A stretch of DNA of 25,292 nucleotides from a virus, in the IMG/VR virus record IMGVR_UViG_3300008516_000146, positions 1-25,292 of that record; one strand, written 5' to 3'. The notes beneath the pieces are model-generated. The model did not search any database. It saw only the letters and a program-made list of their open reading frames with translations, and was not told the origin of the DNA. Below are positions 3,104 to 21,289 of the stretch, in pieces; the stretch's first letter is position 1; every line of letters starts with the position of its first letter. The position numbers and the translations under genes are program-made.

Positions 3104-3376
3104 ATGAGTGAAATTTGGAATGATATTGATGGATTTGCTGGTTATTACCAGATAAGTAGTATTGGGCGAGTTAAAAGTATGTATCGTACATTTGGAGGCA
3201 GAACTATCAAAGAGAGAATACTGGCAACCAAAACGGGTAAGGGTGGTTATTTATGGGTTACGCTGTGTAAAAATGGAGACATGTCCTATTTTATGATTCA
3301 TAGGCTAGTGGCGTGTGTATTTATTCCTAATCCAGAGAATAATCAGAACTTACGATTGTATAGATTTAGTCTATAA
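3104..3376 (+). pseudogene. truncated NUMOD4-type HNH homing endonuclease
   Basis: The N-terminus carries a clear NUMOD4 DNA-binding module (EIWNDIDGFAGYYQISSIGRVKS, given here as WxDIxGFxGYYQIS-GRVKS). A linker and the start of an HNH region follow (GGYLWVTL, then IHRLVACVFIPNPENN). In intact relatives the next residues supply the catalytic His-Asn-His (of the type NHIDGN...N). Here the frame runs into an unrelated LRLYRFSL tail and stops at 90 aa, and neither other forward frame restores the motif. It is therefore a remnant without a nuclease centre. It may still bind DNA. It points to past homing activity next to the terminase genes. Confidence 0.75.
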
Positions 3377-5956: not shown

Positions 5957-6506
5957 AATAGCGAATACTATGAAAAAAGAATTTAAAATAAAAATCAGAA
6001 TGGATAATAGGGATGGGTCAGATGATCTTGCTTCACTTACATCTGATTGTGAAAGCGAATACAGCAACAACAAGGCAAAAGGAATGGTATCTGAATTATA
6101 TTACAAAACAGTAATAGCATCGAACGAAGAATCATTATTGCACATAAAATCAATGTATTCAGAGAAGGCTAAAGAAATTAGTCATTTATTAGTAAGGCTA
6201 GGTGCAGTCGAATTGAAAGAGAAAATTCAGACTCAAGTATTTAAGCTTAAAAAAGATAAAATATATAAGGTTATATATTCTGACGGTAGTTATTGCTTAT
6301 TGAGATACAGGTATCATAGGTATAAATTAAAATATAGCTCAATGGTTGATTTCTGGCTAGACGAAAACAGCGATAGCGAAGAACAGATGGTTAATGCATC
6401 TTCCTGGAATGGTGAGATTATGCTTAATAATATAGTAAAAATAATAAAGCCATCAATAGAAGAAAAAGAATTATTTAAAATCATAGACATTAAATCAAAA
6501 AGATAA
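5946..6506 (+). CDS. hypothetical protein, 186 aa, directly upstream of TerL
   Basis: A charged protein with a basic N-terminus (MKNRIANTMKKEFKIKIRMD), an acidic Ser-rich stretch (GSDDLASLTSDCESEYSNN) and a central/C-terminal part rich in beta-type sequence (KIYKVIYSDGSYCLLRYRYH) ending IIDIKSKR. An in-frame ATG at 5931 would add five residues; 5946 gives a tighter overlap with the preceding stop. It overlaps the TerL start as TAATG, so the two are probably translationally coupled. No family is recognised. Confidence 0.6.
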   Translation: MKNRIANTMKKEFKIKIRMDNRDGSDDLASLTSDCESEYSNNKAKGMVSELYYKTVIASNEESLLHIKSMYSEKAKEISHLLVRLGAVELKEKIQTQVFKLKKDKIYKVIYSDGSYCLLRYRYHRYKLKYSSMVDFWLDENSDSEEQMVNASSWNGEIMLNNIVKIIKPSIEEKELFKIIDIKSKR

Positions 6507-8743
6507 TGGCAGGAAAACAATTAAGAGCAGGTATAAACTACGCTTTTATTCACAATAATTTTGATTGGGATAATAATGGGAGTTATAATTTCCTTCTTCA
6601 AGGCAGTTCTGGCAGCGGAAAAACTTTCGATGCGCTAATTTTCATTCTCACATATTGCACTAACTACAAAAACAAAGGGTTAAGAATACTTATAACAAGA
6701 GAATCGTATGCAGCCACTAAAGATACCGTCCTTGCTGATTTCATTAGAATTCTAAAGGATGCTGGCATATATGATGAAAAAAATCACGTTCAGTCGCATC
6801 CACAAAAATATATACTGGAAGGAAATACAATAAGTTTTAAGGGACGAGATGATTCATCTTCGCATGGGCAACGTAATGATCTTATCTATTTTAATGAGTT
6901 AATGAACGATGATAATAGCTCAGCATTTGATCAACTAGAGGGTAGGTTAAGCGGAATATTTATAGCAGATTACAATCCGAAGTTTACAGCCCACTGGGTC
7001 TATGACAAGATAAAAAACAGACCAGACGTCAAATTTCTTAAAACAACATTCTTGACCTGTGCGTTTCTTCCTCCAAAAGAAAGATTGGCTAAATTAAGAT
7101 ACGAACCAACTCATCCAGAAGACAGGCATCTTCCAATGAAAGATCGCAGACCACACCCTGTAAATATTTCAGCAGGAACGGCAGATGAATACATGTGGAG
7201 AGTTTACGGAGAAGGTGAAGCAGCGGCAGCAGAGGGTATAATATTTCAACATGTTAAATGGATAGATAGGTTTCCTGACGGGATGGGATTTATTTACGGA
7301 ATGGATTTTGGATACACTGTTGATCCTTGTGTTATCGTGAAGTATGCAGAGGACAATATTAAAGACGAATCATTTGACGGTAATATATGGATTGAGTTAT
7401 TCAGTTACGAGCCGATGGAAACGCCGGAGGCTATAAACGAACACGCGATAGCAACTGGATTAAATATAAAAATAAAAACATTCGCAGATTCTTCAGATAA
7501 ACACATTTCAGAAAATAAAGGGTCAATTGAATTTGTAAAAGGATTGAAAAATATCGGATGGTCTAATATAGAAAAAGTAAAGAAGACAAAATCTATAATG
7601 TATTGGATAACATCTATGAAAAAAAAGAGAATACATATAGTTAAAAATCAATACTATAAAGAAGCTAAAAGAGAACAGGAGAATTATAGATTAAAAACAA
7701 TAAATGGATTCCAAATAAACCAACCGATAGATAAATTTAATCACTGCTTTATTGGGAATACATCAATATCAACAATCAATGGGGATGTGCAAATAAATAA
7801 ACTAAAACATGGTGATTTAGTTCTTACTTCCAATGGATACTTCCCAATATTGGAAGTATTTGACAATGGATTGCGCGAGGTATTTGAATATACGATAAAT
7901 TTTAGTAACTTTGCTGTTAAGTTAACATGCACTAGCGATCATTTAATAAAAACAGATAAGGGATGGAAAAAAATAAAACAGTTAAGGTCAATGGACAAGA
8001 TATACCTGTCCAAATGTTTGATGGGAAAAGTTACAAATTATATAAAGGAGAAAGATACTTTTCAAGAGGAGCGAAACGACTGCACATTGTCGTATGGAAG
8101 TACTATAATGGGGAAATACCAAGCGGACACGACATTCACCACAAAAACGAAAATCCATTCAATAACGACATATCTAATCTCGAAGTTATTGAAAGTTCAC
8201 TTCATCAAAGAAATCATCAAAAAGATAGGTTTAAAAACAATCCAGAATATTGGAATAAATTCCATTCAAGAGGGATTGAAGCAGCAAAGGAGTGGCATAA
8301 AAGCGAAGCTGGGAGGGAATGGCACAGAGAACACGCTAAAAAGTTTGATTTTGGGAATAAAACATTTGGTGAAAGAAAGTGTGAAATATGTGATTCTATG
8401 TTTGAGGCAAAAACATCTGAGCAGAGATTTTGCTCAAACAAATGCAAATCAAAATACAGAAGAATTATGGGATTTGATAACATTACGAAAATATGCGAAT
8501 ACTGCGGAGAAGAGTTCACCACAAGCAAATACAGCAAAGCAAGGGTATGTGCAGACTATGCTTGTCGTTGGGGTATCGGCAAGAGAAGATACAAAGAAAA
8601 AAATGGTTTATGATATTTCAGTAGCAAATACGCATGAGTATCTCGCAAACGGAGTTCTTGTGCATAATTGTTGGGACGGGGCTAGATATGCCCACATCGG
8701 ATGGAACACTAAAAAGCAAAGAGTATTCTGGGGTCAACAATAA
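6506..8743 (+). CDS. terminase large subunit precursor containing an intein
   Basis: Motor ATPase and nuclease that drives DNA into the prohead. The precursor has 745 residues. Walker A is GSSGSGKT (33-40), and Walker B LIYFNE (126-131) carries the catalytic Glu. The RNase H-like nuclease acids are Asp267 (in GMDFGY), Asp328 (in FADSSD) and Asp724 (in CWDGARY). Residues 414-721 are an intein inserted between FNH and CWDGARYAH, exactly at the third nuclease motif, so the enzyme can be active only after splicing. Removal leaves about 437 residues, a normal TerL length. The start overlaps the previous stop (TAATG). Downstream it is followed by the accessory cassettes rather than directly by the portal gene, which begins about 2.7 kb later. 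Confidence 0.92.
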   Translation: MAGKQLRAGINYAFIHNNFDWDNNGSYNFLLQGSSGSGKTFDALIFILTYCTNYKNKGLRILITRESYAATKDTVLADFIRILKDAGIYDEKNHVQSHPQKYILEGNTISFKGRDDSSSHGQRNDLIYFNELMNDDNSSAFDQLEGRLSGIFIADYNPKFTAHWVYDKIKNRPDVKFLKTTFLTCAFLPPKERLAKLRYEPTHPEDRHLPMKDRRPHPVNISAGTADEYMWRVYGEGEAAAAEGIIFQHVKWIDRFPDGMGFIYGMDFGYTVDPCVIVKYAEDNIKDESFDGNIWIELFSYEPMETPEAINEHAIATGLNIKIKTFADSSDKHISENKGSIEFVKGLKNIGWSNIEKVKKTKSIMYWITSMKKKRIHIVKNQYYKEAKREQENYRLKTINGFQINQPIDKFNHCFIGNTSISTINGDVQINKLKHGDLVLTSNGYFPILEVFDNGLREVFEYTINFSNFAVKLTCTSDHLIKTDKGWKKIKQLRSMDKIYLSKCLMGKVTNYIKEKDTFQEERNDCTLSYGSTIMGKYQADTTFTTKTKIHSITTYLISKLLKVHFIKEIIKKIGLKTIQNIGINSIQEGLKQQRSGIKAKLGGNGTENTLKSLILGIKHLVKESVKYVILCLRQKHLSRDFAQTNANQNTEELWDLITLRKYANTAEKSSPQANTAKQGYVQTMLVVGVSAREDTKKKMVYDISVANTHEYLANGVLVHNCWDGARYAHIGWNTKKQRVFWGQQ
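7745..8668 (+). other. intein within TerL (308 aa)
   Basis: A protein-splicing element. It begins at Cys414 with the block A pattern CFIGNTSISTINGD, followed by HGDLVL. Block B contains TxxH as TSDH (476-479) and continues DKGWKKIKQLRSMDKI, matching the usual GW..a..L..GD.I. The C-terminal blocks are VYDISVANTHEYLANG with His710, and VLVHN with His720-Asn721, followed by Cys722 of the C-extein. All splicing residues are present, so splicing should work. The roughly 190 codons between about 8015 and 8590 read no recognisable domain in this frame, because that stretch encodes an HNH endonuclease in the -1 frame instead. Confidence 0.9.
7963..8613 (+). CDS. HNH homing endonuclease encoded out of frame inside the intein
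   Basis: A complete 216-residue HNH nuclease in the -1 frame relative to TerL and wholly inside the intein. After a start that overlaps intein block B come GKSYKLYKGERYF and LHIVVWKYYNG, then the HNH core DIHHKNENPFNNDISNLE (57-74) and a linker helix. Two zinc-ribbon pairs follow: C140-C143/C157-C161 and C178-C181/C196-C201. The likely role is to cut intein-free terL alleles so that the intein is copied by repair. It may start at ATG 7963 (an in-frame TAA lies at 7957) or at ATG 8014, where homology-like sequence begins. No Shine-Dalgarno sequence is visible, so how it is translated is unclear. Confidence 0.85.
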   Translation: MEKNKTVKVNGQDIPVQMFDGKSYKLYKGERYFSRGAKRLHIVVWKYYNGEIPSGHDIHHKNENPFNNDISNLEVIESSLHQRNHQKDRFKNNPEYWNKFHSRGIEAAKEWHKSEAGREWHREHAKKFDFGNKTFGERKCEICDSMFEAKTSEQRFCSNKCKSKYRRIMGFDNITKICEYCGEEFTTSKYSKARVCADYACRWGIGKRRYKEKNGL

Positions 8744-8754
8744 TCACACTTATA

Positions 8755-8786
8755 TTTGCATATTAAATTTAATTATCTTACATTTG
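8755..8786 (+). promoter_or_regulatory. Bacteroidota-type promoter after TerL
   Basis: TTTG (8755-8758), a 20-nt spacer and TACATTTG (8779-8786) fit the -33/-7 consensus well. The predicted start falls at the left end of the structured element at 8788, so the transcript would begin with that fold and continue into the small gene at 8933. Confidence 0.6.
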
Positions 8787-8787
8787 A

Positions 8788-8906
8788 ATAACGGTTTGTG
8801 TATGTTTTGTCGTGCAAGAGATAATTAACTAAGTATTAACCATCGTTTCGATTAGCAAATCCGTTTTCAAAGTAATTAATGCACGATGAAATATAAACTT
8901 TGTTAT
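8788..8906 (+). repeat. attC-like structured element, copy 1
   Basis: The ends ATAAC (8788-8792) and GTTAT (8902-8906) pair. Inside, an arm starting GTGTATGTTTTGT (to 8810) partly pairs with ATGAAATATAAAC (8886-8898), CGTGCA (8811-8816) pairs with TGCACG (8880-8885), and TAATTA (8822-8827) with TAATTA (8873-8878). Copy 2 at 10127 has the same outer sequences but a different, still paired, inner stem. The layout resembles a folded integron attC site, but the core does not match the canonical GTTRRRY. A promoter-linked structured RNA is the alternative. Confidence 0.6.
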
Positions 8907-8932
8907 CGTTTCGGTTTTTATTTTTTCTTCCA

Positions 8933-9136
8933 TTGAAAAGGCCGTATATTTTATTTGATAGAAAAGATGATAATTCATTCTCGTGCTTTCATGTTGGGCT
9001 ACTTGGATGTAAATCTATAGAAGAAATTAAACATGGCAAAGATAGCGGCGGAATAGACATATGTTCCTATGTAGTCCATTTTAAAGACGACATCAAGATT
9101 AAGATAGATAATCCATTTTATGTATTCTTATCCTAA
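8933..9136 (+). CDS. hypothetical protein, about 67 aa, TTG start, cassette 1
   Basis: The frame from TTG 8933 reads LKRPYILFDRKDDNSFSCFH, continues through a Gly-rich SIEEIKHGKDSGGIDIC and ends NPFYVFLS. There is no ATG in this frame, so the start is uncertain. The residues upstream of 8933 are Phe/Leu-rich and probably untranslated. It begins about 30 nt after copy 1 of the attC-like element, matching the placement of the 10295 gene after copy 2. Its 3' end overlaps the leftward gene at 9128 by 9 nt. The function is unknown; it could be a decayed gene. Confidence 0.45.
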   Translation: MKRPYILFDRKDDNSFSCFHVGLLGCKSIEEIKHGKDSGGIDICSYVVHFKDDIKIKIDNPFYVFLS

Positions 9137-20499: not shown

Positions 20500-20868
20500 A
20501 TGGCTTGTTGTAGTGGAACACAAAGATTAGATAAAGATTATGTCAGGAATTTGGCGGTTAGATATTCAGAAAAGATGGAAGTCGATGTGGCTTTACATGT
20601 ATTCTCACTCAGAGGCGTTGGTAAAAAAGTTTACGATTTCACCGAAGACCTCGAAAGTGTTGGAAGTAACGGACTTGTCGAAATTATTAAGTTTCGAAGA
20701 AATAAAAGCAAAGTTGTTTTATCACATCCAAAAGGAGATGTCGGAGATTCAACAGATGCAGGAGAACTTGCCGAACCTAAACCCAAAAGAATTAAACGAA
20801 AACCTGCTAAACTTACACCAAAAGTGGCAAACAGCAATGAACTTGCTAAAAAAGGGAAAGGCAAGTGA
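20500..20868 (+). CDS. small basic protein, first frame of an overlapping pair before the tape measure
   Basis: A 122-residue protein, MACCSGTQRLDKDYVRNLAV, with a Cys-Cys pair and a small domain (VDVALHVFSLRGVGKKVYDF, GLVEIIKFRRNKSKVVLSHP), and then a low-complexity basic tail (KPKRIKRKPAKLTP) ending KKGKGK. It overlaps the +1-frame gene at 20738 by 131 nt, and that frame is open back to 20540. Two overlapping genes directly before a tape measure are the classical layout of tail-assembly chaperones made by programmed frameshift. An A6-G3 tract near the 3' end (AAAAAAGGG, just before the stop) is a possible slip site. Confidence 0.55.
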   Translation: MACCSGTQRLDKDYVRNLAVRYSEKMEVDVALHVFSLRGVGKKVYDFTEDLESVGSNGLVEIIKFRRNKSKVVLSHPKGDVGDSTDAGELAEPKPKRIKRKPAKLTPKVANSNELAKKGKGK

Positions 20869-21289
20869 CGAAGCAGCTAATGAGGCGTGGAATAAGATAC
20901 TCACAGAGCATTATGAGTACGTAGACCAAGATTCATTTGATTTATTCGTAAAGGGGTTTAAAAAGGATGTTAAGTGGGACTGGGAGTTAGTTGAAATGAA
21001 AACAGCTTTAATGTTAGCTAAAATGGGAATGGATTCAGGATGGGATGCATTAAAGGAAATAGGATTAACTGGAACTATCCAACAAATAGAACAAAAAATA
21101 AAAGGCAGAATAACAAACCATGAATTAAAATTTAAACCATCAAAAACAGAAGACAATAAGCCAATTGATTTTTATGTAATGATGGCACAAATAAGAAAAC
21201 GAGATTATAAGGTAGACACAAACATATTATTAATAGAGTGGGATGGTATCCTTAAAAGTATAAGAGAAGAAAATGAGCGGTCAAATTAA
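20738..21289 (+). CDS. putative tail-assembly chaperone, second frame
   Basis: A helical 183-residue protein starting MSEIQQMQENLPNLNPKELN, then LLNLHQKWQTAMNLLKKGKA and, after residue 85, WELVEMKTALMLAKMGMDSG. It ends GILKSIREENERSN and overlaps the tape measure start by 17 nt. The frame is open upstream to 20540, but the upstream residues look like a shadow of the first gene. Expression may be from ATG 20738 (preceded directly by AAAGGAG) or as a frameshift fusion with the 20500 gene (+1 or -2). The function is inferred from position; no domain is recognised. Confidence 0.55.
   Translation: MSEIQQMQENLPNLNPKELNENLLNLHQKWQTAMNLLKKGKASDEAANEAWNKILTEHYEYVDQDSFDLFVKGFKKDVKWDWELVEMKTALMLAKMGMDSGWDALKEIGLTGTIQQIEQKIKGRITNHELKFKPSKTEDNKPIDFYVMMAQIRKRDYKVDTNILLIEWDGILKSIREENERSN

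Follow-up and report, generated by a model that had tools for sequence, protein, structure and literature searches.

The subject of this analysis is the large terminase subunit gene (terL) of a 25,292-nucleotide stretch of viral DNA (IMG/VR record IMGVR_UViG_3300008516_000146, positions 1 to 25,292; hereafter the window). This gene contains an intein, and inside the intein lies a complete HNH endonuclease gene in another reading frame, both frames being open. All features of the locus are on the plus strand. The terL open reading frame (ORF; 6506-8743) encodes 745 amino acids without interruption. Its N-extein (residues 1-413, 6506..7744) comprises the ATPase domain and most of the nuclease domain, with matches to Pfam Terminase_3 (1.6e-9), Terminase_6N and TIGR01547. 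The intein follows in the TerL frame as 308 codons from Cys414 to Asn721 (7745..8668), and was recognized by Pfam Intein_splicing (E = 2.4e-9 to 3.7e-9), by NCBIfam intein_Cterm and by a Hint fold in the AlphaFold model. The C-extein (8669..8743) begins at Cys722 and supplies the end of the nuclease domain (CWDGARY...) and the stop codon.

The window intein carries the residues that characterize class 1 inteins, namely a nucleophile at position 1 (Cys414), a TxxH motif (T476xxH479), a terminal His-Asn pair (His720-Asn721) and a Cys, Ser or Thr at +1 (Cys722), together with His710. C1, T63 and H66 (the Thr and His of block B) and the terminal N308 were invariant in 84-87 relatives, and Intein_splicing was present in 85 of 87 members. 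The usual insertion point is where the TerL nuclease domain ends, in the context ...NH/C...N/CxDAxRY (slashes mark junctions). Insertion was precise and an intein-free allele exists, since the intein-free relative L006 aligned over the joined exteins at 45% identity and reads through the junction. A mini-intein relative, L106 (TerL 42% identical), occupies the identical site. Comparison with it divides the window intein into an alignable Hint N-terminal half (intein residues 1-89, blocks A and B, 7745..8011), a dual-coded insertion that is missing from L106 and forms a linker in the TerL frame (residues about 90-269, 8012..8551), and a Hint C-terminal part (blocks F and G, up to His720-Asn721, 8552..8668) that matched intein_Cterm.

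The HNH ORF (216 amino acids, 7963..8613) lies in frame -1 relative to TerL. It matched Pfam HNH_3 (1e-14; core at residues 39-79) and PHROG 15471, an HNH family (5.9e-35), and contains two CxxC...C zinc modules. HNH_3 was matched in 55/55 members, and H59, H60, N68, N72, H81, C140, C143, C157 and C161 were invariant in 46 relatives. Both ends of the gene are dual-functional. Its start ATG (7963-7965, within 7961..7966) is made of the wobble A of Gly486 (GGA) and the TG of Trp487 (TGG), at intein residue 73 within the Hint fold. Its stop TGA (8611-8613, within 8609..8614) is made of the wobble T of Tyr702 and the GA of Asp703, where the C-terminal Hint block has its conserved VYD motif. The third forward frame holds 23 stops across the HNH, among them those at 7974, 7983, 8043 and 8106. 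When the HNH protein and codon usage were held and synonymous codons permuted, the intein frame of the window stayed open in 0.04% of 5,000 shuffles (4.1 stops expected, 0 seen). A first-pass annotation, made from the letters of the window, had described the 308 open codons with their splicing residues, the full HNH core with two zinc modules and the closed third frame. All of these were correct, and its placement of the HNH insertion at about 8010 agrees with the L106 boundary after intein residue ~89 (nucleotide ~8012).

Structure prediction gave a consistent picture. The AlphaFold model of the intein frame had a predicted local distance difference test score (pLDDT) of about 95-98 over residues 1-90 and about 93 over residues 271-310, with about 50 over most of the HNH-overlapping part, except for a helix (118-177). 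The mean pLDDT of the -1 product was 95.5. One stretch of DNA is thereby predicted, with confidence, to yield a Hint fold in one frame and an HNH fold in the other. Foldseek placed the gp41-1 intein first for the intein model (best E 8.5e-7), DnaB and RecA inteins also being close, and an intein profile search matched gp41-1 (6qaz) at 5.9e-21. I-HmuI (1u3e) was the closest solved HNH in a profile search (8e-4); a structure search with the HNH model returned weak matches only, I-HmuI first at E 0.14.

Relatives were collected by searching viral contigs with an HNH profile and an intein profile, the former also being run against phage isolates and GTDB genomes. Hidden Markov models (HMMs) of the N-intein half, the C-intein half and the HNH were applied to all six frames of each locus, and relatives were collapsed at 90% DNA identity. 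This yielded 149 non-redundant intein N/C pairs. The intein frame was fully open with the HNH at -1 in 124, open with the HNH at +1 in 2, and open without an HNH in 3, two of which are TerL mini-inteins (L106 and L175); 19 pairs were fractured by stops or a frame change, and one, in L006, was spurious. An HNH in frame with the intein was found in none of the 149 pairs, and the grounds proposed for rejecting the first-pass inference were not borne out. Clustering the 124 HNHs at 70% amino acid identity gives about 100 groups (median identity 39%). Among the sequences with the arrangement are those of three isolates, Acinetobacter phage Highwayman, Tetrasphaera phage TJE1 and Rhodobacteraceae phage LS06-2018-MD07, in all of which only terL is annotated; gene callers miss the arrangement. 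It also occurs in genome records of Bacteroides, Parabacteroides, Byssovorax, Nitrospiraceae, a Thermoplasmatales archaeon and Patescibacteria metagenome-assembled genomes (MAGs), which presumably represent prophages or co-binned phages. An out-of-frame HNH within the intein is confirmed, then, though it is old and widespread and not particular to this phage.

To guard against a bias of the intein query towards the -1 frame, loci from the HNH-only search were tallied apart. Of its 80 loci, 55 had an open intein frame with the HNH at -1 and 2 with the HNH at +1; 8 were fractured, and 15 had no detected intein pair. On inspection, four of these 15 also proved to be open TerL inteins, their Hint domains being more divergent; the HNH is at -1 in L041 and L102 and at +1 in L095 and L097. 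The mirror-image +1 arrangement in an open TerL intein was seen five times in all (L095, L096, L097, L104 and L200); the -1 register given in the first-pass annotation holds for nearly all relatives, with these few using +1.

Across the 124 sequences (23,104 HNH codons), a set that was chosen by openness, the intein frame contained 0 stops against 294±11 in synonymous shuffles. Openness by chance was expected for 11% of such sequences, and was observed in 124 of 143 intein-flanked HNHs (-1-open or fractured). Free-standing HNH relatives had 138 stops in the corresponding frame against 133±6 expected, and 0/22 were open; this control set leaves out the divergent-Hint inteins L041, L095, L097, L102, L188, L195, L198 and L200 and the unclear L045. 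No avoidance was seen in the third frame (2594 stops against 2592 expected). The suggestion that the intein frame has been kept stop-free is upheld by these comparisons, with the qualification that the intein frame is no longer open in the 19 fractured relatives, which resemble split inteins. Amino acid similarity of the intein frame over the HNH was not above the synonymous null once stops were excluded (z = 0.64). An apparent amino acid constraint over the same region (z = 9.5) was due to stops in the null and was dropped. The conserved residues sit in the HNH frame and not in the linker frame. Given the stop avoidance and the z of 0.64, the intein frame over the HNH is kept open and is otherwise free, behaving as a linker, which amends the first-pass interpretation.

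The codons at the ends of the HNH were also examined in relatives. The wobble base before the intein Trp codon was A in 62/73 relatives, compared with 26.0±3.9 expected from codon usage of the same genes. This enrichment implies internal initiation, and the HNH is probably made from the ATG at 7963. In 55/116 relatives the VYD motif likewise supplies the HNH stop, and TAT was used in 50/69 against 37.9±3.9 expected.

We consider it very likely, from sequence, that the element in terL is a mobile intein, placed where the TerL nuclease domain ends and having its homing endonuclease encoded by a separate, overlapping and internally initiated gene at -1. The TerL frame would be translated into a precursor; the Hint domain would then cut itself out and ligate the exteins, the stretch opposite the HNH being no more than a removable linker. 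The HNH would be translated apart, from the ATG set in the intein Trp codon to the TGA set in the VYD motif, giving a free 216-residue nuclease. This nuclease presumably cuts intein-free terL alleles, repair then copying the intein together with its HNH.

Several points weigh against this proposal. A Shine-Dalgarno 4-nucleotide core lies upstream of the ATG in only 33/116 relatives, and the purine run of the window, AAGGG, abuts the HNH ATG. Since AAGGG touches the ATG, initiation in the window would need another route. The stretch upstream of the ATG is 45% A. The closest annotated intein-free TerLs are in Rhodobacteraceae, Cellulophaga and Flavobacterium phages, and initiation without a Shine-Dalgarno sequence is common in Bacteroidota. 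The start- and stop-codon counts and the stop tests assume independence between related sequences. At least 11 loci of the HNH-only search are free-standing or unclear, and the HNH family is accordingly not confined to inteins. Finally, splicing itself, translation of the HNH, cleavage of terL and homing are events that we infer.

Among other explanations, programmed -1 ribosomal frameshifting out of terL fares best, although we regard it as improbable. It would produce a TerL-Hint(N)-HNH fusion unable to splice. The -1 position of the HNH in nearly all relatives would fit such a route, as would one slippery-like heptamer in the window overlap (GGGAAAA at 8023). That heptamer, however, lies downstream of the HNH start, the HNH ATG is conserved, and a few relatives use the +1 frame. 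A conserved slippery heptamer was not found: canonical -1 heptamers occurred in 15/124 entry regions and 9/124 upstream controls, at no fixed place. It is more improbable still that the HNH ORF is a defunct remnant and that the region now serves as mere intein linker. Some relatives do have a shortened HNH without the second zinc module, and a few are degraded, such as the remnant in Brochothrix phage BL3. Yet the HNH and first zinc-module residues are all invariant in 46-55 relatives at a median identity of about 39%, the start codon is under selection, conservation at the protein level lies in the HNH frame, and the fold is predicted with confidence.

Removal of the element as RNA, by a self-splicing intron bearing the HNH gene, has a very slight probability. 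HNH genes of this type are common in group I introns, and I-HmuI, the nearest solved HNH albeit a weak match, is a homing endonuclease of that kind; it differs from the window HNH in being intron-encoded and in its other DNA-binding modules. A group I intron was rejected on the blank Rfam result over 6400-9000, even at E<=1, and the 124 relatives keep an open intein frame and splicing residues that an intron would not need. An assembly or sequencing frameshift that makes an in-frame HNH appear out of frame has a negligible probability. Two compensating indels would be required, and the register is repeated in 124 non-redundant sequences and in sequenced isolate phages; the isolates refute such an artefact for the family and make it very unlikely in the window's own assembly. 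The record is metagenome-derived, and its sole near-identical counterpart (L001/L005), IMGVR_UViG_3300028837_000509, which matches the window exactly over the 12,235 bases retrieved, may not be an independent assembly.

A mobile intein with a separate overlapping endonuclease gene departs from known systems in several respects. Canonical inteins carry the endonuclease as one of their own domains, read in the frame of the splicing domain; the usual teaching is of one protein, two domains and one frame, and the present large and diverse family splits the domains across frames. Canonical endonuclease inteins, including the mycobacteriophage TerL inteins (PMC5050341), resemble the window intein in that Hint is split by the endonuclease region between blocks B and F, within TerL. 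They differ in that here the HNH is never in frame (-1 in the window and 124 relatives), and the mycobacteriophage inteins lie within the ATPase domain, compared with the nuclease-domain end here. The closest parallel for the frame usage is phage ShiLan, where an HNH domain lies out of frame in a methylase without a splicing domain (PMC11855218). As in the window, the insertion there remains open in the host frame and encodes a zinc-finger HNH in an alternative one, and our re-check placed that HNH at offset 2 (-1) relative to the methylase frame. It differs in having no intein domain, its host-frame product being thought to remain in the methylase, whereas a complete Hint intein is present here; the two HNHs are only distantly similar (HMM E about 6e-9), the zinc module of ShiLan preceding the HNH core. 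A literature search for out-of-frame or overlapping endonucleases in inteins found, besides the ShiLan work itself, only a phage announcement mentioning it, the contents of a 2025 actinobacteriophage intein preprint from the same group (doi 10.1101/2025.01.02.630785) excepted, so priority is uncertain.

The same HNH family occurs as free-standing HNH_3 genes beside the terminase genes of, for example, Pseudomonas phage FBPa53, Exiguobacterium phage vB_EauM-23 and Salmonella phage Shemara (34-40% identity). These are outside inteins and their corresponding frame is closed. In the HNH tree (FastTree, weak deep support), HNHs are scattered over free, intein-resident and fractured forms. The tree requires the frame to have switched between -1 and +1 3 times. 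It also requires 16 transitions of the HNH between free-standing and intein-resident states, of which well-supported branches force 6, and fractured forms take part in at least 4 supported transitions. Together with the frame counts, these changes indicate that HNHs have passed into and out of inteins repeatedly, but never into the host frame.

In the 19 fractured relatives, stops part the N- and C-halves with the HNH in between, and a separate ATG or GTG is present for many of the C-halves. Isolates of this kind are Brochothrix phage BL3 (L021; gp2/gp3, HNH remnant), Lactobacillus phage CL2 (L017) and Vibrio phage 1.245.O (L020). Because TerL is essential, the fractured relatives may splice in trans, and the CL2, Vibrio 1.245.O and BL3 TerLs are candidates for new naturally split inteins. 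The inteins gp41-1 and NrdJ-1 are reportedly naturally split, in so-called fractured genes. The gp41-1 intein is the nearest Hint to that of the window, and the 19 relatives have an HNH between separated halves; the window intein differs from split inteins in being contiguous, one ORF without a stop. We tentatively propose, as a possibility somewhat short of even, that dual-coding inteins are a stable and widespread class in phage TerL, in which free-standing terL-directed HNHs were repeatedly locked into the intein in a non-host frame. The two parasites would thereby be entangled: frameshift loss of the HNH would endanger TerL, and loss of the linker would cost the intein its HNH. Loss of openness in the linker frame would be a direct route to split inteins of the gp41-1 type.

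The arrangement would allow the mobility gene to be expressed, regulated and mutated independently of the protein that hides it. It is a natural gene entanglement with ready controls in its free-standing, mini-intein, +1-frame and fractured relatives, and it suggests a source of split inteins. With the start codon held at one position in a conserved motif, the question of how hidden HNH genes are translated can be tested directly.

Two relatives appear to carry further inteins. A TerL at L009/L010:4377-5000 has an apparent second, shorter Hint insertion in the P-loop (GSAR/C...HN/SGKS), giving two inteins per TerL. A Berkelbacteria MAG contig (L199:920-1981) has a second open intein upstream of the dual-coding one, with no HNH detected in it.

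Elsewhere in the window, the gene for the terminase small subunit lies before terL, and portal, head and tail genes come after it. A short ORF between the two terminase genes (3104-3376) carries a NUMOD4 motif (Pfam 3.4e-15) and also matched HNH endonuclease families. No HNH core was found in this ORF, which is probably a truncated second homing endonuclease. Two long ORFs, 20500-20868 and 20540-21289, overlap in different frames directly upstream of the tape measure gene, a position that fits tail-assembly chaperone genes expressed via programmed frameshifting.
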